Assembly (NCBI GenBank): GCA_963681505.1
Contig: OY811975.1
Span: forward strand, 10,428,230-10,492,229
Length of the DNA stretch: 64,000 bases
Origin: Eunapius fragilis
Taxonomy: Eukaryota; Porifera; Demospongiae; Spongillida; Spongillidae
Reading direction: 5' to 3'
The notes beneath the pieces are model-generated. The model searched no databases. It saw only the letters and a program-made list of their open reading frames with translations, and was not told the origin of the DNA. Position 1 is the first letter of the stretch. Each line of letters opens with the position of its first letter. The position numbers were made by a program, and so were the translations under genes. Below are positions 4,400-54,944 of the stretch, piece by piece.

Positions 4400-4401
4400 T
4401 T

Positions 4402-4419: not shown

Positions 4420-4496
4420 CTGATCGTCGGGAAGTCTGCCCGACTGTACTACGGCGTCAAAGGGGAACGGCTGGCCTGATCATCCTTATACGGTGG

Positions 4497-5639: not shown

Positions 5640-6048
5640 AAAGCGATGGATACCGCAGGAGAGAATGTTGGAAGGGAAAATGGTGTCCGTACGATGTGCG
5701 CACGGGGATACTGAACTGTACCCATTAGCAGATATCAGGATAGAAGTGGATGGCACCCCGATTCGAGTAGAGGCGGCCGTGGCGGATACTTTACCTGTTG
5801 ATGTCTTACTGGGGACGGATGTTAAGCAGTTGAGTAATCTGCTTGGAAGGAGTGTTCCGAGAAACATCACTGATAAAGTTGCAGGTGGAGATGGAATGGT
5901 AGTAGTAACAAGAGCAAGGGCTAGACAAGAACTGGAAGAAGAGATTTTTAGAAGGGGAAAAGAAGTACAGTCAGGTGTACGGTCCAAGGTGCTAAACGAG
6001 GATTCACCACCCGCAGATGCAGATCATGGGTTGGCTTCAGCTCACTAG
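5350..6048 (+). CDS. Nucleocapsid zinc knuckles plus aspartic protease
   Basis: Continues gag in the +1 frame. Two CX2CX4HX4C zinc knuckles at the start (CGFCGLIGHSTEEC and CYHCGKVEHMSWSC) bind RNA. A retropepsin-like segment follows: LLDTACSRTMV, where DTAC is in place of the usual DTG/DSG, then the flap and PVDVLLGTDV, the ILG-like element. The shift from gag is either programmed +1 frameshifting or a one-base lesion. The ORF ends in a single TAG (6046-6048), after which the integrase follows in the same frame, so this stop could be read through or be a mutation. The Cys in the active-site triplet is unusual. Confidence 0.75.
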   Translation: MRKCGFCGLIGHSTEECRKRLSASQQSGKEKERTMRCYHCGKVEHMSWSCPEKRALLCQGRRCQKVKDTSLNRSGSVEGQTVKNILLDTACSRTMVKKRWIPQERMLEGKMVSVRCAHGDTELYPLADIRIEVDGTPIRVEAAVADTLPVDVLLGTDVKQLSNLLGRSVPRNITDKVAGGDGMVVVTRARARQELEEEIFRRGKEVQSGVRSKVLNEDSPPADADHGLASAH

Positions 6049-10856: not shown

Positions 10857-10872
10857 TGGTAGCAGAGAATGG
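10857..10872 (+). other. primer binding site overlapping the gag start
   Basis: TGGTAGCAGAGAATGG matches the complement of the initiator tRNA-Met 3' end at 15 of 16 positions (from recalled tRNA sequence). Its ATG at 10869-10871 is also the gag start codon. Confidence 0.75.
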
Positions 10873-12908
10873 CGTCTTCGACTCACACAAGTCTACCGAA
10901 GCCATTCGCATCGGGAAATGTACAAGAATGGCTTACGCGTTTCGACATTTGTAGCGATGCGAACGGCTGGGATGAGAAGGTGAGGGCTGTGAAGTTGCCG
11001 ACTCTTTTAGAAGGAGAAGCTCTCGCCACGTGGCTCGACCTTAGCGGTGACGAAAGAAAGGACTACGGAACTGTTAAGGAAAAGCTCACTGCCGCGATGG
11101 TATCAACTACCTTCACAACGCTAGAGCAGTTCCACCAAAGAAGGCTGGCTCCCGGTGAAGCATTATCTCTTTTCGTTCACGAACTAAAACTACTGTTGAA
11201 TCAGGCAATGCCCAACCTCGAAGCTCGTGCTCGTGAGCAACTATTGTTGCACCAATTCCTAGCTGGCTTGCCTAGTGCAGTTAGCAGACAACTTCGCGCT
11301 ACGGGAGATGCTAAAGAATTGGCGTCCACGCTTGAACGTGCTAAATTGTTGATGTCTTTAGAAGAGGAACAACCAGTCGCGAGTGTGTCACAGTCTCAAC
11401 GTGATCGTGTGGTAACGGAACTTCAAGGCCAAGTACTTGCCCTTACAGAGCAGGTAGCAGCACTGAAACATCTGGGAAGCAGGCGCAGTGATGAGCACAC
11501 AAGGTCGGTCCAGTGTTTCAAATGTGGGAAGTTTGGGCACATTCAGCGTTTCTGTAGAAGCAGATTTAATCAGAAACTCCAACGGGATGATTGCAGGGGG
11601 CAACAGTCATCCCAACAAACAACAGTAAGCCCACTGGATTGTGTTGTCGTAGCATCAATTAGGAGTGAGGGGTCGATAATGGAAGGTAAAATAGCTGGGG
11701 TATCTACTGAAATAATGCTGGACTCTGGTTCATCGGTCTCACTTTTACGTCAAGAACTAGTTTCCCGTCTTAAAGGAATTACCAGACAACAGCCACCACA
11801 GAAGCTAAAGTTAGTAACAGCCAGTGGAGAGGCACTACCAATCGTGGACTATGTAGAAGCCACCGTGGTCCTTGGAAACGCAGAGATGAAGCACCATTTT
11901 GTTGTGGTCAAAAACCTTATCACTCCTGTCATCGTAGGAGTCGATTTTCTACAGGATAAAGGTCTTATTTTAGATTTCACAACCACTCCAGTCACTGTTA
12001 CTCCAGCCGGAAAGAAAAGGAGTAATGAGAACTGCAAGCAAAAGAGTTGCTACATCCCACTAGAGTTGGCACCCATCTGGGAAGCTGAGAAGCAGAGAAG
12101 AATAACATTCTGTGCTGCACTATCGGTGGTAGATGACAATAAGGAAGACATTGAGGGGTGTGCCATTCCCATATTTGATGATCGGGCAAATTTTGAATTT
12201 CCAGAATTCATTAAACCTTGCTTCAACTCTACAGTACATGAGTTCAGGGATCTATTCATCAAGACACCAGGTACAACTAATATCACATGCCACAAAATCA
12301 CCACGAATGGACCACCAGTTCGAGTTCCGCCTCGGAGAATACCAGCGCACTACAGAACAGAAGTTGAGAGCCAGATCCAGCACATGCTCCAGAAAGGAAT
12401 AATTGAAGAGAGTAGTAGTTCGTGGATGGCACCAGCTGTCTATGCAAGGAAGAAATCAGGGGAATTACGTATCTGCGTGGATTATCGGGAACTGAATAAA
12501 CGAACTCACAAAGATGCTTACCCATTGCCGCTTGTGGATGAAGTCCAGGATCGTCTTTCAGGTTCAGTAATTTTTAGCAAGTTGGACCTGCAAAGTGGCT
12601 ACTGGCAAGTTCCAGTACATGATGCTGATCAGGAGAAAACTGCTTTCTGCCCAGGTCCAGGGATGGGTTTGTTTCAGTTTACCAGGATGCCCTTTGGTCT
12701 AAGTGGAGCTCCAAGTTCATTTCAACGTCTAATGAATATCATCATGCGAGGTCTGCCGTTTGTCTCAACTTATATCGATGACGTTTTAATCCACTCGGAC
12801 AGTGAGGAGGTGCATAAAGGTCACTTGCAGGAGGCTTTTAGAAGATTAAGAAAAGCTGGATTAACACTGCGGGGTGTCAAATTGGGATGTCACAAGTATC
12901 ATACCTAG
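10869..12908 (+). CDS. gag-pol: Gag-protease-reverse transcriptase polyprotein
   Basis: Begins at the ATG inside the PBS. Gag-like region about residues 1-170 (VKLPTLLEGEALATWLDLSG). A single CX2CX4HX4C zinc knuckle lies at 216-229 (CFKCGKFGHIQRFC). The aspartic protease has DSGSSVSLL at 285-293 and VIVGVDFLQDKG as the second element. The RT has ELRICVDYRELN, KLDLQSGYWQVPV, RMPFGLSGAPSSFQRLM and the catalytic YIDD at about 635-638. The frame ends shortly after, in the thumb (GVKLGCHKYHT). The next ORF overlaps by 22 bp in another frame and restores the usual sequence (SYLGHVFSGKG). This is probably an indel rather than programmed shifting, because the join falls inside RT. Confidence 0.9.
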   Translation: MASSTHTSLPKPFASGNVQEWLTRFDICSDANGWDEKVRAVKLPTLLEGEALATWLDLSGDERKDYGTVKEKLTAAMVSTTFTTLEQFHQRRLAPGEALSLFVHELKLLLNQAMPNLEARAREQLLLHQFLAGLPSAVSRQLRATGDAKELASTLERAKLLMSLEEEQPVASVSQSQRDRVVTELQGQVLALTEQVAALKHLGSRRSDEHTRSVQCFKCGKFGHIQRFCRSRFNQKLQRDDCRGQQSSQQTTVSPLDCVVVASIRSEGSIMEGKIAGVSTEIMLDSGSSVSLLRQELVSRLKGITRQQPPQKLKLVTASGEALPIVDYVEATVVLGNAEMKHHFVVVKNLITPVIVGVDFLQDKGLILDFTTTPVTVTPAGKKRSNENCKQKSCYIPLELAPIWEAEKQRRITFCAALSVVDDNKEDIEGCAIPIFDDRANFEFPEFIKPCFNSTVHEFRDLFIKTPGTTNITCHKITTNGPPVRVPPRRIPAHYRTEVESQIQHMLQKGIIEESSSSWMAPAVYARKKSGELRICVDYRELNKRTHKDAYPLPLVDEVQDRLSGSVIFSKLDLQSGYWQVPVHDADQEKTAFCPGPGMGLFQFTRMPFGLSGAPSSFQRLMNIIMRGLPFVSTYIDDVLIHSDSEEVHKGHLQEAFRRLRKAGLTLRGVKLGCHKYHT

Positions 12909-15109
12909 GGCATGTATTTTCAGGAAAAGGTATGTCTCCTGATGACAGCAAAATTCGGGCAGTAACAGAGTGGCCTAAACCAGTAGATGCAGGAGATGTA
13001 CGACAGTTTCTGGGGCTCGCTTCTTATTACCGTCGATACATAAAGGGTTTTGCTGATCTTGCTGCCCCACTCCATCAGTTAACACACAACGATGCTGAGT
13101 TTAAGTGGACAGATCATTGCAACAAGGCATTTGAGTCACTAAAATGCCGGTTAACTGAAGCTCCTGTTCTGGCTTTTCCTCGGTTTGATAGACAAGCAGG
13201 TACAATGATTTTGCAGACTGATGCAAGCGGTGTGGGACTAGGCGCAGTATTAGAGCAAGAAGGGCATGTAATTGGCTATGCTAGTCGCACGCTGTCAAGA
13301 TCAGAGTCCAATTACAGTGTTATACAGAGAGAGTGTCTGGCCATAGTGTGGGGGATGAAGCAGTTCCGTCATTACCTTTTAGGGCGACCATTCCAGTTAA
13401 TGACTGACCATGCACCACTACAATGGCTGGCCCAACAGAAATCAGAAGGTCTTCTTTGTCGATGGTCTCTTGCTATTCAGGAATATGACTTCTCCATTGT
13501 GTACCATAAAGGATTGTCAAATGGTAACGCTGATGCTTTGTCACGAAGGAAGGATACTGCAACTCTCACTGTTCACTCAGCTCTCACCACTCTTCATTTA
13601 GGTATGACGATTGAGGATGTCAGACAGGCACAGAAGAAGGATGCAATAATACAGAAGTTGAAAAATGCACTAGAAATGTCACAACGCCCACAGGCAAAAC
13701 AGGAATGGAGACAGCAACCGTTAAAAAGGTATCTACAACTTTGGTCACAGTTGGTCATTCATGAGAATGTGTTGTGTAGGAAGTACAGGCCAGGTCCTAC
13801 CTGTGAACCTATCATGGTACCAGTGCTGCCTACGGCTATGCATGACCAAGTATTGAAAGACTGTCATGATGCATCATCGGCAGGTCACATGGGAGCACAA
13901 AAGACACTCGAACGAGTACGCCAAGAAGCATACTGGATAAATATGGCTCGTGACGTAGAAAAGCATTGCAGGGAATGTGAAGTGTGTCAAAAGTCTAAGC
14001 TCACGAAACCAACTCAGGCACCACTTGTGAATGTTCCGATAGGTAGACCATGGCAGATGGTTGCCATTGACATTCTACAAGTACCCCTGTCTAACAGAAA
14101 CAACCGCTACCTGCTTGTAGTGCAAGATTATTTCACAAAGTGGCCGGAGGCGATCCCCATACCTGACCAGACAGCTGAAAGGATTTCGAAGGAAATGGTT
14201 AAGCTGTTTTGCACTTATGGAATCCCAGACATTGTTCATTCTGACCAGGGGCAGAATTTTGAGAGCACCATTTTTCGTCAAATCCTAGAAGCATTTGGCA
14301 TTAAAAAGAGTCACACATCTGCCTACCACCCGGAGGGGGATGGAATGGTCGAACGGCTGAATAGATCATTGCTGCAGTTACTCAGGACCTATGCACAAAG
14401 GCAGGATGATTGGGAGAAGAACTTACCCTTGGTGCTATATGCTTATCGATCAGCTACGCACAGTTCGACTGGGACATCACCCTTTGTCCTAATGTATGGT
14501 CGGCAGCCAAAATCTAGCACATTTTCTTCATTCACTGGTTATGACGCACTGCAGTATCAAGGAACTCTTCGAGCAAAACTAGCTGAACTCCAGGATCTTG
14601 TAGAGGCACATATTGTGGAGACTGCACAATGCCAAAAAGGAAATTATGACCAGAATTCAGCAGAACGAAGTTTTAAAGTTGGAGATTTAGTGTGGCTGTC
14701 CATTCCAACAGCAGGAAAGCTAGACCCACGATGGGAAGGAAAGTGGAAAGTGAAAAGTAAGAAGCCGCCAGTTACTATGGAGATCACAGATGGTAAAAGG
14801 ACTAAAGTCGTACATGTAAATCGTCTACAACCTCGTATCCAACCATCAGGGAAAGAAGATGTGCAAAGTGGTGCACAGCATATGCAGCCACGTCACCCTA
14901 TGGACTGGAAAGCTCCACTTGTTGAGCACTTTGTTGTTGAGAGTCCACTTCCAGTAGCAAATCCACCGGCACCACCCATGCAACCAGGGCCTCCACCACC
15001 TCCTCTACAAGTGCCACCACTGCCTCCACAAGAGCAACCAGGCACAATTGAACTGGCCACTAGAAGGTATCCAGAGAGAAACAGACGTCAACCTGATAGG
15101 TTGCATTAG
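12887..15109 (+). CDS. pol: RT thumb-RNase H-integrase polyprotein part
   Basis: Continues pol. RNase H has LQTDASGVGLGAVLEQ (D112), QRECLAI (E149), MTDHAPLQWL (D174) and NADALSRR. Integrase has the HHCC head (HDASSAGH, then HCRECEVCQK) and a D,D(35)E core (AIDILQV, HSDQGQNF, YHPEGDGMVERLN), then a GPY/F-like module (PRWEGKWKVKSK, VHVNRLQPR). A Pro-rich C-terminal tail ends RRYPERNRRQPDRLH before the TAG. All catalytic residues are present. Length is usual for gypsy pol. It would be joined to the preceding ORF except for the frame change at about 12890. Confidence 0.9.
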   Translation: MSQVSYLGHVFSGKGMSPDDSKIRAVTEWPKPVDAGDVRQFLGLASYYRRYIKGFADLAAPLHQLTHNDAEFKWTDHCNKAFESLKCRLTEAPVLAFPRFDRQAGTMILQTDASGVGLGAVLEQEGHVIGYASRTLSRSESNYSVIQRECLAIVWGMKQFRHYLLGRPFQLMTDHAPLQWLAQQKSEGLLCRWSLAIQEYDFSIVYHKGLSNGNADALSRRKDTATLTVHSALTTLHLGMTIEDVRQAQKKDAIIQKLKNALEMSQRPQAKQEWRQQPLKRYLQLWSQLVIHENVLCRKYRPGPTCEPIMVPVLPTAMHDQVLKDCHDASSAGHMGAQKTLERVRQEAYWINMARDVEKHCRECEVCQKSKLTKPTQAPLVNVPIGRPWQMVAIDILQVPLSNRNNRYLLVVQDYFTKWPEAIPIPDQTAERISKEMVKLFCTYGIPDIVHSDQGQNFESTIFRQILEAFGIKKSHTSAYHPEGDGMVERLNRSLLQLLRTYAQRQDDWEKNLPLVLYAYRSATHSSTGTSPFVLMYGRQPKSSTFSSFTGYDALQYQGTLRAKLAELQDLVEAHIVETAQCQKGNYDQNSAERSFKVGDLVWLSIPTAGKLDPRWEGKWKVKSKKPPVTMEITDGKRTKVVHVNRLQPRIQPSGKEDVQSGAQHMQPRHPMDWKAPLVEHFVVESPLPVANPPAPPMQPGPPPPPLQVPPLPPQEQPGTIELATRRYPERNRRQPDRLH

Positions 15110-16194: not shown

Positions 16195-17425
16195 TTAGAA
16201 ATAGCCATTCGTCCATGAAACATATATTAGTCCCAACAAGAAATCTGTTGGGGTCATAGCTCTTGAAATGTAACAGACTGAAAGTACTTTACTATTTCTC
16301 TGTTTCTGTAGAAGAACACCACCCAGGCCAAATGAGGATGCATCTGATGATACAACTGTAGGAAGATTGGGACCATATAAAGCCAGCAATGGTGAAGTAC
16401 TAAGCAGCCTTTTTATTTCCTTGAAAGCTCTTTGCTGGTCCGTTCCCCACATCCATGAATTTTTTTCTCGTAGCAGGTCTCTAAGTGGTTTTGTTTCCTG
16501 GGCAATAGGAGGTGAGAATTTACTCAACTGGTTAACTATCCCAAGAAACCATCTAATATCTCCAACTTCCTTTGGTTCTGGAAACTGAGTGATGGCCTCA
16601 ATCTTTTCTGGATCTGAATTGATCCCCTTATTGCTCACAACTGGACCCAGGAATCGTATCTCTGTCTTCGAAAATTCACACTTACTTGCATTCAGTGTAA
16701 GTCCAGCTGAGAGTAGACATTGGAGAACTTGATCTAATCTTCTGTCGTGATCCAATTGTGTTTTTGCCGAAGACCAAGATGTCATCAATTAAGCACACCA
16801 CTCCATCCATATCACCAAGAATCATAGACATTCACTTCTAAAACTATCAGGGGCTGATGTTATGCCAATTAAAGCAGAAATGCCCAAATGGAGTTATAAA
16901 TGTTGTCAACAAGGCTGAATCACGAGCCAATGGGATCTGCCAAAACCCTGGATTGGCATCTAATTTAGAGAACAGTTGTGCTCCAGTGAGTTGCATTAAG
17001 ATTTGGTCAACAACTGGCAGAGGATGATTTTCTCTGTACACATTCTCATTTTGTCTTCGGTACTCTACCACCTCTGCACACCAATTGGTTGGTTCTTCTA
17101 CACTTGATATTACCCCATGTTCTTCCATCCGTTTCAACTCAGCTTTGACTTTAAGTAGTAAAGGTATGGCTACCCTTCGTGGTGTTGTGATAGCAAATGG
17201 TGTGGCTCCCTCTTTCATCTGTATCTTGTATTCTGGTCCCAGTATTCCTAATTCTTTGGACAACTTGGGATATTTCTGTTGTACTGCTGCTGTACCCACA
17301 AAGTTCACTCGCTGTAAGAAGCTTAGAGATTCGATAGCAGGTCTTCCAAGTAGTGGTGTTTGCAGTTCAGGAAGGACATATATCTCTTGCTTGACTTCTT
17401 TTCTTCCATGCTGTAGGGTTCCTTA
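16195..17425 (-). pseudogene. inverted protease-RT-RNase H segment of old gypsy element
   Basis: Read on the minus strand from 17425 it gives a protease tail (LLGRPAIE), then RT fingers/palm (GVISSVEEPTNW, FSKLDANPGFWQIPL), then after frame changes the thumb and connection (LTLNASKCEFSKTEIRFLG, GIVNQLSKFSP) and the RNase H start (VVSSDASSFGLGGVLLQ, YISRAMTP). The catalytic YxDD block (near 16780-16850) is damaged. Orientation is opposite to the rest of the element. Both this block and the plus-strand block at 17466 retain the YxSRxM motif, so it is not a simple in-place inversion; two copies may have contributed. Confidence 0.7.
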
Positions 17426-17465
17426 GAAACAGCCCCTCATCTCATACATCCTCCTTGATGGAAGT

Positions 17466-18400
17466 GAACATCGATAACATATGCCTCTCGTACTATGCCC
17501 AGTTGGAATAAGAGGCCCTGTCCTTGATTTTTGGTATCAAGAAATTTCATATTTACCTCTATGGCTGTTCATTCGCCCTAGTTACAGATCACAAACCATT
17601 GTTGTGCATTTTGGGTCTTAAACAGGAAATTCCAGAACTTGCTGCTGCCAGATGGACCCTCATACTAGCAGCCTATAATTACAAGATTGAGTTTCGCCCT
17701 ACACAAGAACATGGAAATGTGGGTGAACTGTCAAGGTTACCAGTGTGTGTCACCAGAAGTGACAACACTGTCAATTCATCGAATGTTCACAAATTGAAGC
17801 CTTACCAGTGTTGGCAGAGAGCAGTTAGTGTTAATGGTCCTCAATTTGTATCAGATGAATTTGCCTTGTTTTTGAAGCAGGACAGAGTCAAGCATATCCG
17901 GTGTGCCCCATACCACCCCTCCCTCCAATGGGATGGTGGAACGGTTTGTGCAAACCTTCAAGACAGCTATAAAAGTGAATGGAGCGAATTCAAGGAATCT
18001 GTCCCAAAAGTCAAATAGCTTCCTGCTCTTATCATAATACACCACATACTACCACCAATGAGGAGTACATTGTTATTGGGATGGAGACAGATTGTTTTTG
18101 GGATGGAGACTGTGATCCTTAATGGATTTGTTTATACCCGGTGTAGATAAGACTGTTTTTTATCACCAGGCTCAGCAGAAAAAAGACCATGATGCTGGAG
18201 CCAGATTCAGAGTGTGTTTGGTTGGAGAACAGATTCTAGCTAATTATCCCAGGAATAAGACATGGAAAGAAGGTGTGGTCGTGGAAAGAGTTGCCCAACC
18301 TCTTATGTGGTACAAATGCAAGGAGGATAGGTGTTGTGGAAGAGGCATATTGACCACATTAAGCCACTCACATGTGCATCATCATTGCCACCAGTGAGAC
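17466..18400 (+). pseudogene. RNase H and integrase remnants of old gypsy element
   Basis: RNase H C-terminal half: ALSLIFGIKKFHIYLYG, FALVTDHKPLLCILG and GELSRLPV. An integrase core fragment follows (VNGPQFVSDEFALFLKQ, CAPYHPSLQWDGG), with the zinc head and first catalytic Asp missing by deletion. At 18122-18350 a further fragment (ARFRVCLVGEQILANYPRN) matches the integrase C-terminal module. Several frameshifts are present; no function is expected. Confidence 0.65.
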
Positions 18401-35405: not shown

Positions 35406-36463
35406 CGTCCCGACTAATTTTCCAAAAAGTGAGTTCGACAAAATAGGCCAAAAAAGTATTCGATTCTCATGGATGCGGTGTTAAAATGGACAATCTATAT
35501 CTATCTGATGTATGACACACAAGGTTATGTCCTCCTTACACACATACACACATGGTGGGAGGGTGGGGAGGGTGGTGGAGTAGATTTGAGGTTGTACATT
35601 GGTCTAAATAATCAGATTGTACATAACACCAAGGCACATGACTTCCCTGTAGACCCACCTAACATGTAACACCTCTTTGGTTATGTTATTATGTACAATG
35701 ATCACATTACCACACACATACCTGCCTTCAGTATCTTTTAATTAAACAGAAATAACTGTACGTGTTCTTAGCCTGAACTTAACCTCGACAGTGCCATCAG
35801 TTACCCTGGAGGGTTCCTTACGGTAAGGGAGGATATTTAACGTGTTCATGCCGCATGCTAGCTAGCAGCAGATTATTTGACGGCCCCATCGTTACCACTA
35901 TAGTATAACTTAGCAATTTACGACTATGGCCTATGCTGTTAGAGAAATGAGTTTTACAACATCATACGTATTCCATTATTCTGTCAGAGTTCTGCGTGGC
36001 AGCCTTTGGAAGTAGCAGAAAAGTAAGCAATATGTCTCCCTCGTGCATGGTACCGTGGCTAGCGGACCACCATGGCTGACACATGACCAGCTAGCCATGG
36101 TGGCTATAGCTGCACGCTACTTAACCTGTGGCATTATTTGTATACACCCCAACTGTCAGAGATAATTATGGCTTAGCTATTAATTTCGATCCGTACAGCT
36201 GTCAATGCGTATCGCCAAAATCTAACAATCACACTGTATGTTAGTGCAAACAATTGATCAGTACGTTGTAATATGTATTGTACATGTATACATTATCAGT
36301 ACTCGTCGGTGTTGAGCAAACTCTTTGTTAAAGGAGACAGTGATTTTACATTTAACATCACAACTACACGTGAATGGCTAATCAACTAATATTCTAAACT
36401 GACTTTATTTTCCACACCACCTCCCCCTTCCACGATATCACACACATCTCATGCAATCCCCAG
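35406..36463. other. unassigned stretch upstream of the p53-like exons
   Basis: No certain gene. A 51-nt segment 35772-35822, bounded by TTCTTAG and GTAAGG, would encode PELNLDSAISYPGGFLT, whose YPG..F resembles the start of the p53 DNA-binding domain; this is a weak guess. The exon with the KSxxCTYS..L block was not found. Confidence 0.25.
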
Positions 36464-37152
36464 GGACCCCTCCTGAATCATCATGTGTAATCCGAGCCAC
36501 GTGCTATTACGAGCAAAGTGCGAAGCCAGTGCTCTGTTGCGCAAAGCATCGCGACTCATTGGTGGCAGCCTACAGCAGCATGCCACACCCAGAGCTCTTC
36601 ATGCGAGCAAACCACACAGATGCCGTTAAAAGCAAAGATGATTTGTCTGGGCACATGTCAGTTTGTGTTCCAGGTAAGTTCCGATATGCATCTCTCTCCA
36701 GCGGCATGTAAATTCATGGTCTCCTTATAGTGAAGAAGAACGTAACATACAAGTTCCCTCATGTTACACATCAGATGTGACGAAAGTTGGTGAGGTTCAA
36801 GTTATCTTCACTTTGGAGAGTGTCAGGTGAGTTTACATCAACCCAAACAGTTATACCCAGAAGAGGATCAAATGGCTTCCTTTCTTCAGTGTACTTTTAG
36901 GACGGTGTGTGGTCAATGTGAGGGTGTGTGCATCCTCAGGAAGGGACAGAGTCATTAAAGAAACAGTAATGAAACAACCTCATGGAAAGAAGAGGAGTGA
37001 GTCATTAAACATTTTGCATGCTCCTGCTCGTGCTCCTGTATAATTAACAGCATCTTTATGTAGAGGCCTCAGACATTGGAGTGGATACTGAAGCTGCACC
37101 GTATGGTTCACGTGGTGGAAAGATGTCTCTCACCATCTATGTCTGTTCCTAG
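36464..37152 (+). pseudogene. p53-family DNA-binding-domain exons (one frameshift; may be gene or pseudogene)
   Basis: Three exons with good splice sites: 36464-36673 (CCCCAG| ... |GTAAGT), 36731-36826 (TTATAG| ... |GTGAGT) and 36890-36996 (TTCTTCAG| ... |GTGAGT), plus a possible fourth 37064-37152. Exon one gives TPPESSCVIRATCYYEQSAK, then LCCAKH (Cys and His at zinc-ligand positions 176/179 of human p53) and LSGHMSVCVP (like TGRxSVxVPY). Exon two gives VTYKF and, one frame over, SCYTSDVTKVGEVQVIFTLE. Exon three gives LGRCVVNVRVCASSGRDR, matching the loop with Arg273, Cys275, Arg280 and Asp281. The family is a nuclear transcription factor. Exon phases agree except for one missing base in exon two. 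The fourth zinc ligand (Cys242) reads Asp and Arg248 is lost. N-terminal exons and a clear tetramerisation domain were not found. The 3' end lies close to an LTR at 37316. Confidence 0.65.
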
Positions 37153-37315
37153 TGTTGTGATAGTGCAGAAGATGACCCACCTGTGCATACCACCTCCTTT
37201 TAGGCATCTCCTCGGCTTCACAACCTCATCAGAAAAGTCGCAATGTGCTTGGATGATGGATTTCAACCTATACATCTTAAAACAATTACATTCAAATCAA
37301 ACTGTTACATGTTTG

Positions 37316-37487
37316 TGTAACAAGTATTGTATTACCAGTAAAAGGGTCTTACACGAGACTGACTGACTCATACATAAAGACATACAGGGTATTATATAGT
37401 CTCAGAAAATTCTAGAATGTTCTAGCAGGCTTCTTCTTGCATGACTTGCAATTAGCAGTAGATGTGTTAATAATGACCTCCGTTACA
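37316..37487 (-). repeat. 3' LTR of truncated gypsy element
   Basis: 172 bp on the minus strand, TGTAACGGAGG to CTTGTTACA, with TATATAA inside. Its identity as an LTR rests on position after the pol tail and purine tract; no partner copy exists in the window. Confidence 0.55.
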
Positions 37488-37886
37488 TAATTCCCCACCC
37501 CCCCCCACCCCCCCCCCCCCCCCCTCCAAGCCTTGCGTCCCTGCAAGGTTAATGGCCATTATCTCTGTATCTCAATGGTGGTTGTCGGTTTCTGGGAGGA
37601 TCCCTTCTCAGTGGCTCTGGTGGTGCTAGATCAGGATCAGCGTCTTGTAACGCAACATTGGGGTCATTAAGGACATCAGAGCCCTGCACTTCTATTATGT
37701 CATCCTCATGACCGACTTCCTGTTGTGTTGCATCTTGGTCCTGCTCTACATACGCAAGGGCTTGGAGGAGCTTGCTTCACTGTTTGTGTGCGCTTGGATG
37801 GCAGGCTAATCAGGGTTGCTGTAGCACAGCTTCAGCCAATTTCTATGAACAATTTGACACTTGGCTCCACCTATTATTTGTATTTT

Positions 37887-39276
37887 TTAATTTGCAGAGC
37901 TCAGTTTGTCAACAACTGTATAAGGTCCTCGCCAAAGGGAGGCCAATTTTCTAGTTGTACCTGTTTTCACAGCTGGGACATACAACCGCACTCTATCTCC
38001 TACTTGCAGTTGACCTTCCCCAGTGCTTAGCTTATCAGCTCCTTGTTTTTGGCGTTGGTGAGCAACATCCAGGTGTTTACGTACCGAAGCGAATGCGGCT
38101 TGAAGTGACTGTTGCAATCTTTGGACATATCTTGGCAACTCCTTCTGTTCCTCTCCTTGCCCCAACATCACATCGATTGGCAGTGTGGGTGAGCGACCAA
38201 ACATGACCAGGAAGGGGGTGTATCCTGTAGAATCATGGATAGCAGTACAATATGCATTTTGTATATGCTCATCACAATCTCTTTGATGGTCAGCAATAAC
38301 CTTTGCTAGCATTGATTCAAGAGTACGATTGAACCGTTCTACCTGGCCATTTCCCTCTGGGTGGTATGCTGTGGTTTGTATTTATGCCCAGTGTTGCACA
38401 AAGAGATTTAATTACCTCACTCACAAGGTTGGCCCCCTGATCACTGTGTAGATATTGTGGTACCCCATAACAGCACACAATCTCATTCACTAACACTTTA
38501 GCTAAAGTGACACTGTCAGTTTTGGCCAAAGGAAAGGCTTCTACTTCTACCCATTTGGTGAAGAGATCGGTCACTACAAGGATGTATTTATGTCCACAGG
38601 AAGAGGTAGGCAAGGGGCCCATAATATCCCATGACAGCTTTTCAAATGGATAGTTGCTCTTGATGGTACTGATAGGCAAATGCTGTTTAGAGACTGGATT
38701 GTTCCTCTTCTGACAACGATCACACTGCTGTACAGCATTCATTACATCAAGGTCACACCCAGGCCAGTAGAAACGCTCTCTCAGTTTTTCTAGAGTTTTG
38801 TGAACACCCAAATGCCCTGACTTGTCATGCAACTGCTCAATGACAAGTGGCCGTAAGGTAACTGTTACTACTACTTGAGGGGGGTGGCTACCGCCAATCA
38901 AGTGACGACACAAAACACCATCATTCATTAAGTACCTGTTCTTCCCTCTCTTATCTGTCAACTCCCCATTTTTTAGTGCCTCGATGATCTGAGAAGTGTA
39001 CACATCTCTGACCTGTTCTTGCCTTAGCTTCTCTGTGTCTTCAATGCATGTTATTCCACACACCTCTCTCACCCTATCACCATGAAACAGGGACTGTGGG
39101 GGATCCTCCGTACCTTGTGGTCTTCGTGACAGGCCATCAGCATTCCCATTAGTTCTGCCTGGTCTGTACAGCACCTTCATATCAAACTGCTGCAGGAAAA
39201 GAAGCCATCTAGTTATACGCCCCCCTGTGTCCTTGAGACCCTGGAGAGAGGTTAGTGGGTTATGGTCGGTAAACAA
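37887..39276 (-). pseudogene. RNase H end and integrase of truncated gypsy element
   Basis: From 39276: LFTDHNPLTSLQG and NADGLSRRP (RNase H), then an integrase HHCC head (HDKSGHLGVHK, CDRCQKRN) and core (SWDIMGPLP, HSDQGANLVS). The frame breaks at about 38315, just where the Glu-containing YHPEGNGQVERF should be, and resumes from 38312 (MLAKVIADHQRDCDEHIQ, FMSARSPTLP-like TPFLVMFGRSPTLPIDV) to the GPY module (LWRGPYTVVDKL). The active-site region is split by the frameshift. Confidence 0.8.
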
Positions 39277-39313
39277 GGTGAAGGTTCGGCCATACAGGTA
39301 TGGGTAAAATTCT

Positions 39314-40137
39314 TTAACAGCTGCAACGACTGCATGCTAAAGCTTCCCTCTCCACAGTTGAATAATTACGATCAGCCTTATTCAACTGACGACTCCAGTA
39401 AGATATGACCCTCTCAACACCATTGATTTTCTGACTAAGGACACTGCCTACTGCAAACTCTGAAGCATCAGTTGCTAGGATGAATGGTTGCTCAAAGCAA
39501 GGGTAGGCCAAAATTGGTGACGTTGTGAGCTTTTGCTTCAATAGTGAAAATGCATCGTCGCATTCATTACTCCACTTGTAGCCTCCAGCTGTTTTTCGAG
39601 AGAGTTTGTGGAGGGGTTCAGCAATAGCAGAATAGCCTTCAATGAATCGCCGATAGTAGTTTGCTAAACCAAGGAAATGGCGCAGTTCTTTGATGTTGTG
39701 GGGAGCAGGATACATCGAGACAGCTCTCAATTTTTCTGGATCAGCTTGGACTCCTTGCTGGGAGACAATGTGCCCCAGGTAGCATATCTGGTTTTGAGCA
39801 AAATGGCACTTGCTATAGGCTTAAGTCTAAGTCCTGCTGCAGCCAAATGTTCAAGAAAAGTTTGCAACCGTTCCAAATGTTGCGGAAAAGTGGCACTAAA
39901 CACAATGATATCATCAATGTATATCAGGCACTGTTCATATGTCAACCCAGCCAGAACACACTCCATAAGTCTTTGAAATGTTGCTGGGGCATTGGTGAGC
40001 CCAAAAGGCATTACGTTAAACTCATAGTGCCCACCCTGTGTTGAGAACGCAGTCTTCTCCTTGTCCAGATCTGCCATTTCAACTTGCCAATACCCCGATG
40101 CTAAGTCAAGAGTAGAAAAGAATTGAGAGCTGTCACG
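39314..40137 (-). pseudogene. RT palm/thumb and RNase H start of truncated gypsy element
   Basis: From 40137: FSTLDLASGYWQVEM, FNVMPFGLTNAPATFQRLME and the catalytic block CLIYIDDIIVFS. A frameshift near 39815 separates the connection and RNase H start (HFLGLANYYRRFIEGYS, LATDASEFAVGSVLSQ, STVEREALA), and another near 39337 follows. The RT fingers with the first motifs are missing. Confidence 0.8.
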
Positions 40138-41888: not shown

Positions 41889-44800
41889 TTATATTGTGTA
41901 GCCTATCGTCACTTTTTTTTTATTAGCACTCACAACACCTCCATCAGATTCAGCATGACTTTGTTTTTTATTAGCACTCACAACACCTCCATCAGATTCA
42001 GCATGACTTTGTTTTTTATTAGCACTCACAACACCTCCATCAGATTCAGCATGACTTTGTTTTTTATTATCACCCACACGTGTCTCATTACCTTTGTATT
42101 TTTGCAGTGTGATCTCTTCATACGTTTTCTTTCTGTTAGCACTTCCATTATCTTTAGATATTTCCTGAGCAATCTCTTCGTTAGCACCTTCATGCCACTC
42201 TTTACCTCCATCACATCCATCACATGCTACGTACTTTATTATGTTGGCACTATCATTATCTTTACTATTTAGCTGTATGATCAGGTCACCCTTTTTCTTT
42301 TTTTTAGCATTTTCATGAAGTTCTTCATCAAATTCATATCTGTGTTTTCTGTTAGCATTTTCATGACTGACTGCTTCATACTTTTGCTTACTAATAACTC
42401 TCTCATCCAGTTCTTCATTTGTATCATATTCAGCATACCTTTGTTTTCTGCTAGCATTCTCATGCAGCTTTTCACTTCTGTCATTCTCATCACACCACCA
42501 TATCAACTGGTCCTGACTTAGTTCTCCACATTGAGTTGGCAGGATTGTACATTTCCATCTGTATACAGTATGTCCTCCAGATGACTCTGTGCACACCACC
42601 TCAGCCAGATGGCTAAGTTCAGAGGCACATCTGTCCCCTGTACACACAAAGGCATCTTCAAAGTTGATGTCATTATATTTGAGTGAATTGCACGCTTCCT
42701 TGATGGTACTGTGAACACAATCTTTTACCCTTCTGCAGATGTTACTTGATATATTGATTGATCTGATGTGTACTTTAATATAGGAGAACATGTCAACAAG
42801 GGTAATAATATCTGTAGTGCTTTTCTGTTCAAACAACATGCAGTTGCGGTACATGCATAATGGCCTGTCTTTTTCCATACATAACCTCCATGGAGATGGG
42901 TTGCTTGGAGAAAGAAGGTGAGCCACAAGGCAGCAAAACAGACCATTAGGTGTGTATCCCTGAGTGGGCCTGATTACTAGAGAGACAGTCTGTTGAAGAT
43001 ACTTGGAGACCTGGGTAGAGTTCAGGTGTGGCAACAGAGCAGGCATCAAGTATTTCCCACGTCCTATTTCAGCTGCCACGTGAAGATGCACAAACAACTT
43101 TGCTAAATCTTGAGGAGTGAACAAACCAACTATGTAATGGGATGAAAACTCCCTCAAGAGCTCCACAGAAATAATTCCACGGTCCCTGAATGCTACATAA
43201 TTACCATCAGCTGCTACACTACTGTCTGGGTCTTCTTTTAGTCCATGATGCCGTTCCACTAGTTCACTCACCTTGGTAAGGACCACCTGGGGATCACAGA
43301 ACACTGCCTGGGGAAGAACCTCTGGGTAATATAAGAAAACATTGTGGTGTATAAGATGGTGCAAGGCAGCAGAGAACACCTCTCCCTGGATGTGTAACCT
43401 CTCAGCACATGCTTTGCACTCTACAAGGCTCAGCACTCCACCGTGAGAGGACCTCTGAAGCTCAACTTCCAGCCCATATCAAGCCACAGGTACTTTTATC
43501 CGAATTGAAGGTAACCTGGACATGATTCGCTCCCTAATTGTTTTGGCCATTTTTCTATCCTTATCTTCCGGTGTTTTAGCATTAATGGGAAATATCAAAT
43601 TATTGAGGTCTTCTCCATTATAAATTATGTCTAAAATGTTAGGATCCAGCAAAGCCCTCAGTTTTTGGTTCTTCTCCTCAATTGATTCTGTAAATTTAGA
43701 TTCTTCATCTCGATGTGTTCCTATGACAATCATGAGAGGGGTGTGAGTATTTGGAGTGCACATTGATCCTAAGCAGTGCTGAAGAATTTCCTCATGGGAC
43801 AGAGATGATACATACGGTTTACCAAAAGATTTTCCATTTATTTCATAGTACTCAACAGTGGGGTGGTGCGATAGGGCTTCTGACAAATTTAGTACAAAGA
43901 TAGTCACCGCCAGTGTGTTTTGAATGAAAAAAGGAAGGATATCATGGTACTGCGGTTGACCCCCGCAGTCGATAAACTGGATCCAATTAACACCAAACTG
44001 CTTCGTTTTACACAAATCTATTAAAAAGAAATGACAACAAAGTGACCTGCATTTTAAAACCCCAAATATCATTTACCAGATTGTTGTATGTGATGAATCA
44101 GCTCATCCTCAATGGCTGCAGTCCTGATCTGTTGGATGCTGGTATTTTTCGTGGTGTTGACATCAGTACATGTACGTATGAGGTCAGGATGACCAACAGT
44201 GGCTCCATCACTGTGTGCATTGTTAACAGTTATCGCAGGGAGACCGCTGATCAAATCAGCAATTGACGGGACCATGGGCACACCCTCTTTGATGGTCCCC
44301 CCCATCATACTGAGTAGTGTTTGGTGGTCTTCAATCACAATCCAGTCATCACTATTGTGTGTACCCCCACCACCCACACCAACTCGTGAGAATGTGATGG
44401 CACGAACAGGGTTGTCAGCCAGCCCTGTACTGACACGTTGCTTTGGAGGGTCCTTTTTCAGTAGGAGGCGTTTGAGATGTGTCTTTCCTACACCAGATGC
44501 TCCAAGGACAAGACACTTAATCACTGATGTTTCCACATACCCCTTCTTCATGGCCTCATCGTAAAGCCTTGATACGAGGTATTTTATTAATACACCAATA
44601 TATACATTGCACATGCATATGCACACATAAACATACATATTCACAAATGCACAGACATGGTCACACATACACAATCCTAAATAGCCCAATGTGCCGCAAA
44701 ACAACTTGGGCCAGCTAAGTGAGTGCATGTACATATATACTTATGTACACATGCACAGATACATAGCTAATCTATGAACATAATGTGTGTACCTTTTTGC

Positions 44801-45920
44801 TCTGAGTGTACCCAGACCTGCAGATACTAGTAGTTATAAGTACAGCTTCATTGCTCCATTTCTTACCTTGCACAGTAATCCTCAATACACGCTGACTGAC
44901 CCCATCAACCAGCAAGAGTTTTCCTCCTGGCAATTGAAGTGTGTCTGCATAGGAGCACTCAAATGGCATGTCTCCAACCCAATGCCACTTCTGATCAGTA
45001 TGTGAAAAGGCATAGATGGCAGAGGTCTTCATTTCACCAACTCCTCTTCCCCCTATGGCTAGAAGCACATCATCAACTATGCATACAGATGAGCCAGAGT
45101 ATGGAACATCTGGAAGCTTCCTCCAGGCAGAATGCTGACGGGCGTGTGTTGAAGTCTGTGGAATGGTACATAGTTGTGTATAAGAGTGTTTGCATGTGCA
45201 CCATGAGTGTGTAAGTGTATGCAGACATCTAAGTAGCTGTTTGGGGTGGGTTCACTGCAGGTCTATTACAACATGCAATTAATGCGCCCAGGGACTTATA
45301 TTAACCAGAGTTTAGGTCATATACATTGCATGCAGCTATACTTACACAATGGTCAGACTCACCAGGTCACTGATATTTATGCACCAGACAGCTGTGTCCA
45401 TTCCCCATCCTCCCATCACAAAGAGCACCTCTCCATGGACCACCGCAGACATGGCTCCACATTGCTGAGGAAGTGGTGGCCCAAAGTGCCAGGTCTGTGT
45501 GTTACCACCAAACACCTGAACATCATTTAAACGCCTCCCAGCATCACTCCATCCTCCCATAACCACCAGACCACCTTCATTGACACTAACTACACAGGAC
45601 AACTCACACCCTACTAGCATCTCAGACATGGTGGTCCATTTTCCTTCTTTCCATACCATCACCTTTTTACTACACACGCCATCCTTCAAACCTCCTACAG
45701 CTAATAAACCACTGCCAGATACAGCCAATCTGGCTCCTACATCAACATTCCCAGTGTATCTCTTCCACTTATCCATCTTGTTCAGCCTGTAAACAACTTT
45801 ACCTCGTCCCCAAACCACCGTACCCTCCTCCCCCACCTCCACCAGACCTCCTCCATATTCGCTTCTATCACCTTGCTCAGTTACATTACAGCATGTTTCG
45901 AATTCCAATGTCAAATTCAT
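41889..45920 (-). CDS. Kelch-Roc-COR gene, copy B, with in-frame stop
   Basis: Same exon plan as copy A: 45920-45363, 45155-44867, 44817-44793 (25 nt), 44567-44077, and a long exon from 44017. The Roc P-loop GASGVGKT, G3 DCGGQ and G4-like THRDE are present. The last exon carries the frame into a COR-like region (VFLYYPEVL, VVLTKVSELVERHHGL, LFTPQDLAKLFVHLHV) and ends at TAA 41889-41891. The tail is Lys/Glu/Asn-rich with a 16-residue tandem repeat (QSHAESDGGVVSANKK). A TGA at 43479-43481 replaces the Trp codon of copy A (VPMAWYGLE versus VPVA-stop-YGLE). If real, it ends the protein after Roc; the downstream frame is otherwise fully open, so the stop is recent, polymorphic or an error. Confidence 0.75.
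41925..42070 (-). repeat. 48-bp coding tandem repeat in copy B tail
   Basis: About three nearly exact copies of a 48-bp unit encoding QSHAESDGGVVSANKK. It is in frame, so unit number can vary without breaking the ORF. Confidence 0.8.
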
Positions 45921-46130: not shown

Positions 46131-46785
46131 ATACATCTATAACCCTCATTATATAGATGACAACTAACTAAAACATTCTCTAAGAGAAAATAGGATTTGA
46201 AGGCAATGGTGGTGTAAAAAGCAAGAAAACAAGGGTCTGTAATAGTAAGGGAAAATGTCACAGTTCTATATTAACCCTCGACCAGCGCTAATTAATATTC
46301 ATGACGCATGACGTTACGCGGAGGGTTTTTAAATAGAATTGTTCAAATTCGAGTGTACAGACGCTTGCGGGCGTTTCTCCTACGCGATGCTTCCGATGGT
46401 GCTTTTTTTTCTGGCGTGAGTCGAGAAGTGTTTTTTCTAAACGATTTGTGGAATTTGAGCGCTAGGGATGTAGTTACGCATCGCTGACGAACTTTGAGTG
46501 AGCGTGTTTGGAATAGTGAAGCGATGCTCACTCTCAAAGGAGCCATCATACCGCAGATATGTACGGTAAGTGTTCACACTAGCTTTCGTGTGTAATTACA
46601 AGCATTTACTTTTAGTTTTTTCTCAACCCCGTTGATTGTATAGGCAGCTGGAAAGCTAGAAGGTTCCTCGTACATCCAGCTGCTAATTAGAACTGGTGAC
46701 TCAAATAAGCATCGCTATTACAGGTAAGAGAAAGGGATGTAATGTATGTACTTCCGTTGCACAATGGTGCAACCATGCTACAACT

Positions 46786-48892
46786 ATGTTCCCTCCTCGC
46801 ACCCCAACCATGTTCCCCCCTTACGTCACAACCATGTTCCCCCCTTACGTCACAACCATGTTCCCCCCTTACGTCACAACCATGTTCCCCCCTTACGTCA
46901 CAACCATGTTCCCCCCTTACGTCACAACCATGTTCCCCCCTTGTGCCACAACCATGTTCCTCCCTTGTGCCACAACCATGTTCTCCCCTTGTCCCACAAC
47001 CATGTTCCCCCCTTACGTCACAACCATGTTCCTCCCTTGTGCCACAACCATGTTCCTCCCTTGTGCCCAACCATGTTCTCCCCTTGTCCCACAACCATGT
47101 TCCCCCCTTACGTCACAACCATGTTCCCACCGTACGTCACAACCATGTTCCCCCCTTGTGCCACAACCATGTTCCTCCCTTGTGCCACAAACATGTTCTC
47201 CCCTTGTCCCACAACCATGTTCCTCCCTTACGTCACAACCATGTTCCCCCCTTATGTCACAACCATGTTCCCCCCTTACGTCACAACAATGTTCCCCCCT
47301 TACGTCACAACCATGTTCCCCCCTTGTGCCACAACCATGTTCCTCCCTTGTGCCACAAACATGTTCTCCCCTTGTCCCACAACCATGTTCCTCCCTTACG
47401 TCACAACCCTGTTCCCCCCTTACGTCACAACCATGTTCCCCCCTTACGTCACAACAATGTTCCCCCCTTACGTCACAACCATGTTCCCCCCTTGTGCCAC
47501 AACCATGTTCCCCCCTTGTGCCACAACCATGTTCTCCCCTTGTGCCACAACCATGTTCCCCCCTTGTGCCACAACCATGTTCCCCCCTTACGTCACAACC
47601 ATGTTCCCCCCTTACGTCACAATGATGTTCCCCCCTTACGTCACAACAATGTTCCCCCCTTACGTCACAACCATGTTCCCCCCTTGTGCCACAACCATGT
47701 TCCTCCCTTGTGCCACAAACATGTTCTCCCCTTGTCCCACAACCATGTTCCTCCCTTACGTCACAACCCTGTTCCCCCCTTACGTCACAACCATGTTCCC
47801 CCCTTACGTCACAACAATGTTCCCCCCTTACGTCACAACCATGTTCCCCCCTTGTGCCACAACCATGTTCCCCCCTTGTGCCACAACCATGTTCTCCCCT
47901 TGTGCCACAACCATGTTCCCCCCTTGTGCCACAACCATGTTCCCCCCTTACGTCACAACCATGTTCCCCCCTTACGTCACAACGATGTTCCCCCCTTACG
48001 TCACAACCATGTTCCCCCCTTGTGCCACAACCATGTTTCTCCCTTGTGCCACAACCATGTTCTCCCCTTGTGCCACAACCATGTTCCTCCCTTGTGCCAC
48101 AACCATGTTCTCCCCTTGTCCCACAACCATGTTCCCCCCTTACGTCACAACCATGTTCCCCCCTTACGTCACAACCATGTTCCCCCCTTGTGCCACAACC
48201 ATGTTCCTCCCTTGTGCCACAAACATGTTCTCCCCTTGTCCCACAACCATGTTCCTCCCTTACGTCACAACCCTGTTCCCCCCTTACGTCACAACCATGT
48301 TCCCCCCTTACGTCACAACAATGTTCCCCCCTTACGTCACAACCATGTTCCCCCCTTGTGCCACAACCATGTTCCCCCCTTGTGCCACAACCATGTTCCC
48401 CCCTTACGTCACAACCATGTTCCCCCCTTACGTCACAACGATGTTCCCCCCTTACGTCACAACCATGTTCCCCCCTTGTGCCACAACCATGTTTCTCCCT
48501 TGTGCCACAACCATGTTCTCCCCTTGTGCCACAACCATGTTCCTCCCTTGTGCCACAACCATGTTCTCCCCTTGTCCCACAACCATGTTCCCCCCTTACG
48601 TCACAACCATGTTCCCACCGTACGTCACAACCATGTTCCCCTCTTGTGCCACAACCATGTTCCTCCCTTGTGCCACAACCATGTTCCTCCCTTGTGCCAC
48701 AAACATGTTCTCCCCTTGTCCCACAACCATGTTCCTCCCTTACGTCACAACCATGTTCCCCCCTTACGTCACAACCATGTTCCCCCCTTACGTCACAACC
48801 ATGTTCCCCCCTTACGTCACAACCATGTTCTCCCCTTGTGCCACAACCATGTTCCCATCTTACGTCACAAACATGTTCCCCCTTGTGCCACA
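46786..48892 (+). repeat. 24-bp minisatellite array (about 87 units)
   Basis: Unit CCATGTTCCCCCCTTACGTC plus ACAA (24 bp), with three main variants: CCTTACGTCA, CCTTGTGCCA and CCTTGTCCCA. Higher-order repetition is clear; e.g. the block with CACAAACATG and CAACCCTG recurs after 360 bp (15 units). The period is a multiple of three and no variant creates a stop, so three plus frames and one minus frame stay open for up to 2.3 kb. TTACGTCA is a CRE-like octamer. Confidence 0.95.
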
Positions 48893-48942
48893 CAATTGTG
48901 CAGAGTGAACTCAGGGATTCTACCACCAGCACTTTTAGCAAA

Positions 48943-49158
48943 TTACCTGCTCCATTGCACACACAACCACCTCTTTTCCATTACTACATCCTCTATAGCA
49001 GTTACGACATCCTCTACAGCAACTATGTAACATCCATTCATTATCATATCCATCATTTGCATTGCCTTATTCATCTCTCCAGGTAGCGCCTTGATGACTT
49101 CATCATCAAAAAAGCCATCAAATTCGTCATCGCTACAGTCACTATCTATGACCTCCAT
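48943..49158 (-). CDS. short acidic ORF, possible piggyBac transposase N-terminal remnant
   Basis: 72 codons from ATG 49158, starting MEVIDSDCSDDEFDGFFDDE and then EVIKALPGEMNKAMQMMDMI. Acidic Ser/Asp-rich starts are common in piggyBac-type transposases, and position and orientation fit the right end of the element. No catalytic core exists. It may equally be a chance ORF. Confidence 0.3.
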   Translation of the reverse strand: MEVIDSDCSDDEFDGFFDDEVIKALPGEMNKAMQMMDMIMNGCYIVAVEDVVTAIEDVVMEKRWLCVQWSR

Positions 49159-52745: not shown

Positions 52746-53866
52746 ACATGGTGCCTGAGGATGTTCTGCAATATTTTCGACGTCTTCCCCCGGACTGCGG
52801 CCTCTGATAACCTTGGGGATGGGGAGGAGGAGGGGTGGGGCCAATAACAGTGTGGGCCACATGGTCCGTTGTAGGGGAAGACCCCTCCCCCTCAGGCCCT
52901 TCAAGGAGGTTTTCCAATGACCTGGAGCATAGGTGACATGACCACAAGTATCACCATGACAACAAGCATACTTGGCAGCAGTTATGGTCACACCCTCTTC
53001 CCGAAGAGCGTCTGCAAAACTTAGGGGCGTGCATTTTGTGAATACATGTAGCGGTAATTCAGTAACTGCGTATATAATGCACCTTCAAAGATAAAGGTTG
53101 CTTTCAGCCATGCAGCGGTCCAGGTCGTAGACCTTGAGGAAGCGTAACAGCCCTATGCGGCCGTATCAAAAGGCATACTTATTGAAATATTGAAAAAGTG
53201 GCGTAATGCCTTAGCAACCACCCTTGACAACCAACAACCTTATTACCACTACGTGTTCAATATTTAAAGGCCATACATGCCATACATATGAAGTACCTTT
53301 GTTCTAGTAGAAGCCACATGGCCTAGTTTTCTCTCCACGGCCCGGCCAGTTTTTGACGAACGCATCGACTTCAACGTACTTTTTCGACCACGTGACAAAT
53401 TCTGCTCCCCAGTTGGAAGCACAGAAGAAAAGGATAAAGAAGGTACTTACAACGTATACTATGGAACTGTAGCCATACTTTTCTTCGCGATGGTATACGC
53501 ATGATGATGTGAAGTATATGTACATGTATACTGTGGTTTGAGCTCTGGGAACTATTTATAATACATGTGCGTATGGGCTGGAGGGTGTACCATTCAGATC
53601 AATGTCCTAGCCATCATCAAGCAGCCTCCTGTTTTAGACATCCTCCTCTTAGTGTCTCCCTCATTGAGACTGCATCCCCCCGGTATCTTTACCTACAATA
53701 CTGAGGTGTGCCTACCCATATGTTATGGGGAGGTAGTGACTACTATTTTGACCCCAATCCAGTGGCTGTTCCTGTTCTCAACATTCTAAGTGGAAATAGG
53801 CTGGGGCAATTTTAGCATAATGGGTATAAATAAATGTGAAACCATTAGTAGTAGCTTCTCTTCTAC
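52746..53866. other. mostly unassigned; possible unrecognised exon 53593-53700
   Basis: 53593-53700, preceded by CCATTCAG and followed by GTGTGC, would read INVLAIIKQPPVLDILLLVS, a coding-like but unrecognised string. On the minus strand near 52990, DALREEGVTITAAKYACCHG also looks coding-like. Neither could be assigned. Confidence 0.2.
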
Positions 53867-54560
53867 TCCCCTCCTCCTCACCTCCCCTGTATTTCCTCTC
53901 CTCTCTCCCCTCTCCTCCCTCCCCTCCTCCTTCCCTCTCCTCCCTTCCTCCCCTCCCTGCCCTCTCCTTCCCCCTCCCCTCTCTCCCCTCTCCTCCCTCC
54001 CCTCTCCTCCTTGCCTCTCCCCCTCCTCCCCTCCCTCTCCTCTCCTCCACTCCCCTCCCTCCCCTCTTCTCCCTCCCATCTCTTCCCTCCCTCTCTCCCT
54101 ACCCTCTACCCTCCCCCGCTTCTCCCTCCCATCCCCCTCCTCCCTGCCTCTCCCCCCTCTCCTCCCTCCACTCTCATCTCCTCCACTCCCCTCCCTCCCC
54201 TTCTCCCTCCCATCTCCTCTCCTCCCTCCCTCTCTCTCCTCTCCTCCGTCCCTCCATCCCTCCCTCTCTTCTCCTCCCTCCCTCCCTCTCCTCTCCTCCC
54301 CTCCCTCTCCTCTCCTCCCTCCCCTCTCTTCCCTCCCCTGTCCTCCCACCTCTCCCTCTCCTCCCTCCTCTCATCCTTCCCTCCCTCTCCTCCCTGCCCT
54401 ACCTCCTCTCTCCCCTCCCCTTTCTCCCTCCTCTCCCCCTCCTCACTCCTCCCTCTCCTCTGCTCCTCCTCTCCTCTGCTCCTCCCTCCTCTCTCCCTCC
54501 CTCCCTCCTCCCCTCTCCTCACTCTCCTTCTTCCTCCCCTCCCTTCTCCCTCCCCTCCTT
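53867..54560 (+). repeat. polypyrimidine tract of about 700 bp
   Basis: Almost uninterrupted C/T (CTCCCTCCCCTCTCCTCC types). It creates long Pro/Ser/Leu ORFs on the plus strand and Gly/Glu/Arg ORFs on the minus strand, all low complexity. Confidence 0.95.
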
Positions 54561-54944
54561 AATAATTCTGTTTACACTTATAACTACACTGTCAAAGTAC
54601 TGCTCATACACGTCACAAGTACAGTCCTATTTTGAATCAGCACCTACATGTAATGGCACTTCCAGTGGGTGCCGTCAGGGGATGTATACTTATGGTAACT
54701 CTGAACATTGATAGAATGCCTTCCTTTTCTTACGTATAGCCACCAGAAGGCTTCCATAGACTCCGCAACGTTTCTGGAGCTGGTCAAAGTGGTGTTACAT
54801 CTAGGCTATGTGACCGAACAAAGCAACAGAAGCCGCATTATGCAAAGCAAAGCCGTTTATTGTGTGATGAAAAAAAAGTATGATTGCATCTGAATAGTGT
54901 TTCTGTACAGTGTAGTTTACGATGCGGCATACCAACCCAGAGCC
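54561..54944 (+). other. possible unrecognised exon near 54740-54890
   Basis: After TTCTTACGTATAG (ending about 54740) the plus strand reads HQKASIDSATFLELVKVVLH then LGYVTEQSNRS, which looks coding-like; no family recognised. Confidence 0.2.

Follow-up and report, generated by a model that had tools for sequence, protein, structure and literature searches.

A candidate relaxed member of a multiply duplicated p53-derived subfamily in a sponge genome

The gene at 36161-37320 (+) of the window, a 64,000-nucleotide stretch corresponding to C5:10428230-10492229, is probably a relaxed member of a lineage-specific, multiply duplicated subfamily that derives from p53 and whose zinc site is altered. 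It is homologous to p53, has an open spliced frame and shares a CYTSD motif with further copies in the searched genome (219 Mb in 24 contigs), and one pair of these copies, on contigs C3 and C2, is under purifying selection. The window copy itself seems to lie between weakly functional and dying, the chances of the two being nearly even.

Gene structure

Manual and scripted modelling yielded a seven-exon model (36161-36235, 36300-36369, 36464-36673, 36736-36826, 36890-36996, 37064-37140 and 37204-37320, + strand) of 248 codons that is stop-free up to its TAA and in which the phases agree. Every junction is GT-AG, with GTGAAT and GTCTGT as weak donors. A first-pass annotation had recognised three spliced segments, all of which are present; it had missed the two upstream exons, 36161-36235 and 36300-36369. 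The first of these (exon N, DNYGLAINFDPYSCQCVSPKSNNHT) encodes the strands with which the p53 DNA-binding domain opens. It follows an AG before 36160, ends in phase 0 at a GTATGT donor and can be aligned to L002, the sister copy on contig C7; its start is tentative, and its open frame contains no Met.

The exon 5-equivalent (36300-36369, YSSVLSKLFVKGDSDFTFNITT) begins at the residue that corresponds to human Tyr126. The exon 6-equivalent (36464-36673) reads TPPESSCVIRATCYYEQ...CCAKH...SVCVP and retains the zinc ligands Cys176 (36538-36540) and His179 (36547-36549), and the exon 7-equivalent (36736-36826, EERNIQVPSCYTSDVTKVGEVQVIFTLESV; tandem acceptor 36736 or 36739) contains the CYTSD motif (36762-36776, +), in which Cys238 is retained, Asp stands at the Cys242 position and the Arg248 loop is shortened. 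Arg273, Arg280, Asp281 and Arg282 are retained in the exon 8-equivalent (36890-36996, VLLGRCVVNVRVCASSGRDR...), the GRDR exon of the earlier reading, whose start is now moved to 36890. The exon 9-equivalent (37064-37140) carries a basic KKRKASD followed by an SLTIY strand where the tetramerisation strand would sit, and its donor (GTCTGT/GTTTGT) has the same position in all paralogues modelled. The exon 10-equivalent (37204-37320, ASPRLHNLIRKVAMCLDD...) has a helix-like end and the stop TAA at 37318-37320. Because this seventh exon has counterparts in paralogues, the TAG at 37150-37152, formerly read as the 3' end, is probably intronic. Compared with the introns of human TP53, the junctions at the codons corresponding to 125/126, 261, 307 and 331/332 appear to match in place and phase; the one after SVCVP departs from intron 6 of the human gene, whose intron 5 has no counterpart here.

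Exon 7 carries a frame offset. Read from an acceptor at 36731 (TATAG), the exon hits a stop; tandem AAG/AAG acceptors, 5 and 8 bases past that point, leave the frame open and read EERNIQVPSCYTSDV or one residue fewer. Because the tandem acceptor maintains an open frame, the missing base that had been postulated here is not required. At the same site the C3 copies and L004 (on C2) read TVITYSYPCYTSD or AVITYSYPCYTSD, so the spliced window form is without the strand-like stretch before CYTSD; its retention in the C3 and C2 copies and its loss from the window frame count against our main reading. The offset is also present in L002 and therefore probably predates the split of the two sister copies, about 0.25 dN / 0.41 dS ago. 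L002 is out of frame with the same acceptor, and an open path there needs a shifted donor.

The ends of the protein are less conventional. A search for N-terminal exons had been suggested, and none was recognised in the 8.2 kb that precede the window gene; such an exon may have diverged or may lie farther away. With regard to an N-terminal transactivation domain, an acidic AKWY..DD..LIPE stretch lies upstream of both L008 (on C3) and L004 and has no clear counterpart in those 8.2 kb. Behind the DNA-binding domain, an SLTI strand and a helix-like [AV]SP.LHN.I stretch are conserved in the four copies aligned, in what we take to be the place of the human tetramerisation domain. The tetramerisation domain (PF07710) gave no Pfam match, and a PDB profile search gave no p53 chain for it. 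A C-terminal SAM domain, as in p63/p73 proteins of the SAM-bearing type, was likewise without a Pfam match in the window, L008 or L004 models, for which further exons are possible.

Relationship to p53

On sequence evidence the window gene is a p53 relative by descent. In the HMM search proposed by the first-pass annotation, the 213-residue spliced version that ends at the TAG at 37150-37152 scored 70.9 bits (E 1.7e-19) against Pfam P53 (PF00870, cut-off 27 bits), with a match spanning positions 18-190 of the 193 in the profile; with E allowed up to 10, no other Pfam family matched this protein. Among PDB entries it matches 7pc6 best, the DNA-binding domain of the Alvinella pompejana p53 homologue, which it resembles over the whole domain (E 7.5e-16, 36% identity). 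With 7pc6 (worm p53) as sole query, a purpose-written spliced protein-to-DNA aligner recovered the first five exons with identical inner splice sites, whether or not frame jumps were allowed. When 124 overlapping 2-kb tiles of the window were aligned on both strands, the two gene-holding tiles scored 77.2, and none of the remaining 122 scored above 30.8. The core-domain peptides reported earlier lie where they had been placed and follow the p53 order.

Unrelated open stretches might resemble p53 by chance, and two of the three parts of the 213-residue protein are indeed weak when scored singly against P53 (18.0 and 16.5 bits, with 29.9 for the third). However, the spliced score stands well above that of every other tile, and the same exon order recurs in nine more loci (L002, L004, L006-L012). 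We regard chance resemblance as refuted on these two grounds and leave it a vanishingly small probability.

Zinc site and DNA contacts

In p53, Arg248 is a key DNA contact and Cys242 is zinc-holding. We compared these positions in a seven-row alignment of the window, L008, L004, C13, 7pc6, p63 and a p53 mutant, using human numbering. Cys176, His179, Cys238, Ser241, Arg273, Arg280, Asp281 and Arg282 are invariant, and every row except that of C13, which begins later, has a Lys at the Lys120 place (six of seven). The window, C3 and C2 proteins all have Asp at position 242. Of the site formed by Cys176-His179-Cys238-Cys242, the window gene therefore has three ligands with Asp as the fourth, as read from the sequence. 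Its Arg248 loop (L3) is two residues shorter than that of 7pc6 and contains no Arg248; by alignment, Arg273 and Arg280 are present among the DNA contacts and Arg248 is missing. Because position 242 holds Asp and not Cys, we call the gene p53-derived and not an ordinary p53.

The Asp at 242 and the loss of Arg248 had both been noted in the first pass and are borne out by this alignment. They extend well past the window gene: CYTSD occurs at 13 of the 16 loci L001-L016, though seven of the 13 are near-identical and amount to few independent events. The remaining three loci are fragments without that exon, and Arg248 is missing in every examined copy that has it. Since both changes are common to these loci, including the selected C3-C2 pair, they are not private decay of the window copy. 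The earlier description of a decayed or highly divergent paralogue is accordingly upheld as to divergence, given the P53 score, but not as to the reasons offered for decay, since these features are shared and the exon 7 offset is spliceable.

Copies elsewhere in the genome

One window exon used as genome query matched 17 places, itself included, at E up to 10, the last of which (C12:3443906, E 7.4) is unconvincing. The 213-residue query gave 33 genome matches and a C3 protein query gave 70 exon matches, part of which were fetched (C20:3543205 was among those left out). The copies form three subfamilies. Subfamily A is made up of six copies on C3 and one on C11; subfamily B consists of four partly broken C2 copies (L004, L005, L013 and L016); and subfamily C groups the window gene and L002 with seven partial stretches (L003, L014, L015, L026, L040, L042 and L043) that resemble fragments within the loci fetched. 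The six C3 copies have 238 codons each and no stop, L004 has 231 if its acceptor is shifted, and the end is missing from the C11 copy. L008 and L004 score 93.4 and 70.1 bits against Pfam P53.

The copies retain introns. The C3 copies are 95-99% identical over the ~3 kb fetched, and two C3 regions compared across 9.9 kb show 96-98% identity over ~9 kb; the C11 copy shares ~1.4 kb. Carriage of the C3 copies by a transposon is unsupported, in that the two regions share ~9 kb and the C11 copy amounts to ~1.4 kb between direct repeats. The direct repeats around the truncated C11 copy (L054 683-1520, 2894-3883 and 5392-6369) are each ~1 kb long, and a frame near that copy is, we presume, hAT-like.

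A gene on contig C13 (L056) is the single p53 gene found with an ordinary zinc motif (CPKH...CMTSC; P53 89.7 bits). It shares the P53 domain with the window gene at 26% identity, whereas its zinc motif is intact. The Alvinella protein as genome query matched two weak places, one being the C13 gene; no p53-like model was obtained at the second. Four places on C9 have two C13-type exons each, and in each of the two that were aligned (L061) just two exons fit well. Two pairs of such two-exon pieces, at C9:5654768-5657403 and 5803527-5806162, lie 149 kb apart.

Selection and phylogeny

We estimated dN/dS by the Nei-Gojobori method with 1000 bootstraps. The C3-C2 pair L008-L004 gave 0.197 (bootstrap 0.13-0.29), and window-L002 gave 0.605 (0.42-0.86), reaching 1 in 0.2% of bootstraps. 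The window-L008 value of 0.288 is one in which synonymous change is close to saturation, and the five comparisons of L008 with the other C3 copies, each resting on 2 to 13 changes, give values from 0.17 to 0.72. By these estimates purifying selection is clear on the C3-C2 pair and weak on the window copy and its sister L002, and on account of the one C3-C2 pair the A/B lineage looks functional.

Exons N to 9 contain eight indels between the window gene and L002, seven of them with a length divisible by three. Outside exons this holds for two of 13, a count that includes two alignment ends, and the two indels of exon 10, of 11 and 1 bases, are not multiples of three. The 219 codons compared contain zero stops. 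Neutral simulations with 154 changes produced a mean of 4.4 stops and were stop-free in 0.4% of runs, and those with 77 changes produced a mean of 2.7 stops and were stop-free in 6.8%. Polarising the changes assigned 8 synonymous and 21 non-synonymous ones to the window branch, and 14 and 34 to the L002 branch; these near-neutral ratios suggest that constraint is weak on both branches. A tree of 16 rows (12 of the 13 CYTSD loci, with L013 omitted, plus C13, Alvinella, p63 and p53) grouped the 12 CYTSD rows at 100/99 against the other four and joined the window gene to L002 at 96/95. Placements are unsure owing to the long branches of C13, L002 and p53, about which the program issued a warning.

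A retroelement at the 3' end

The gene was described as lying beside a dead retroelement, and this holds: Ty3-like pol remains (37887-39820, -), broken into several frames, run to ~39.8 kb behind the LTR of a repeated Ty3-like element (37316-37488, -; about 172 bp, end approximate). From motifs, we take the pol remains to comprise a reverse-transcriptase end, RNase H and integrase. The stretch 37330-37890 has at least 41 genome matches, some in pairs 4.4 to 4.9 kb apart. In five fetched element edges, of which a single C6 element supplied two, the flanks differ up to TGTAACAAG; because the edges diverge before it, the LTR start is set at 37316. This is 164 bp past 37152, close to the 160 bp given in the first pass, but the LTR overlaps the end of the seventh exon. 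It begins two bases ahead of the gene's stop codon, so that TAA starts at the third base of the LTR. A second LTR was looked for and not found.

Status of the window copy

Several signs point to relaxed constraint on the window copy: the dN/dS of 0.61, the near-neutral polarised changes, the lack of a recognised N-terminal exon in the 8.2 kb upstream and the seven fragment-like stretches of the same subfamily. Together with the LTR start at 37316, they would also fit a recently dead pseudogene, in which the exon 7 offset, the absent N-terminal exon and the 3' LTR would mark loss and the open frame through the shifted acceptor would be luck or inheritance. Against this stand 248 codons without a stop, indels that stay in frame across exons N to 9 with one exception, and an offset that, being common to L002, is probably older than the divergence of the two. 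We put the pseudogene slightly below an even chance. Full function, with the tandem acceptor as a normal splice site and fast evolution reflecting a changed role, seems rather unlikely: all junctions are GT-AG (two with weak donors) and window-L002 dN/dS seldom reaches 1 in bootstraps, but neither an N-terminal exon nor a start codon was identified, and L002 loses the frame with the same acceptor and needs a shifted donor.

In our preferred reading, that of a relaxed member of a p53-derived subfamily, the proteins of the subfamily retain the DNA-binding domain of p53, three of its zinc ligands and the Lys120-like, Arg273, Arg280, Asp281 and Arg282 contacts, with Asp at the position of the fourth ligand, a shorter L3 loop and no Arg248. 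Asp242 may take the place of Cys as zinc ligand, and the proteins may bind p53-like sites via the major groove while lacking the Arg that reaches the minor groove. Copies may oligomerise through their conserved C-terminal strand and helix. The window copy, with no N-terminal exon recognised, would make at most a truncated protein, one that modulates its relatives or competes with them; the copy would be under relaxed constraint and may be disappearing. More speculatively, and on balance doubtfully, an early-branching animal lineage may have amplified a p53 with a Cys-His-Cys-Asp site and no minor-groove Arg into at least 13 loci that would co-regulate with the one ordinary p53 found or compete with it, with the window copy as an N-terminally truncated, natural counterpart of dominant-negative p53.

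Comparison with known systems

The Alvinella domain (7PC6) and the window gene both have Cys176, His179, Cys238, Arg273 and Arg280. Excerpts of its description report that 7PC6 retains Cys242, Arg248 and Arg249 (PMC8901663), unlike the window gene with its Asp at 242, shorter L3 loop and missing Arg248. According to excerpts of a survey, all of its remote holozoan p53 homologues are positively charged at 248 and 273 and have Cys176 as well as Cys238 (PMC6981761). As far as those excerpts go, the homologues of choanoflagellates and their relatives share both cysteines with the window gene, whereas every examined copy here that has the exon lacks Arg248. The same excerpts give two p53 paralogues in Monosiga and three in Salpingoeca (PMC6981761). 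Elephant TP53 is described in excerpts of two reports as having about 20 copies in one genome, 19 of them retrogenes (PMC5061548, PMC9108310); while the elephant copies are, on those accounts, mostly retrogenes, the copies here have introns and two C3 copies lie in ~9 kb of duplicated DNA. Recovery of p53 loci from sponges is mentioned in an excerpted study (PMC7531772), and among the open-licence papers listed we found no report of a sponge or multi-copy invertebrate p53 expansion.

If a p53-derived subfamily under purifying selection lacks Arg248 and Cys242, the fold would be maintainable in another way, and such a subfamily would be a natural test of which parts p53 can do without. An expansion of p53 copies outside mammals would also be relevant to work on cancer resistance.

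Surroundings of the gene

Rfam and tRNA scans of the window were both empty. An inverted repeat at 36040-36110 (CCATGGCTAGC...GCTAGCCATGG-like), just 5' of exon N and also near L002, is possibly a small DNA transposon. More Ty3-like retroelement frames, with domain names that we assign presumptively, occur at 4383-8648, 10863-15109 and 16195-18018. Two similar blocks at 604-2492 and 41889-45920 (-) each hold a P-loop (GASGVGKT) protein and a second frame, an apparent duplicated gene pair; we take the P-loop protein to be Roc/COR-like and the second frame to be Kelch-like. Long tandem repeats at 46687-49086 and 53786-54711, open in several frames, are probably simple repeats. Elsewhere in the genome, long COX1-like stretches with stops at C9:9623639-9627660 and 9672719-9676564 (L019-L021) are probably nuclear copies of mitochondrial DNA.
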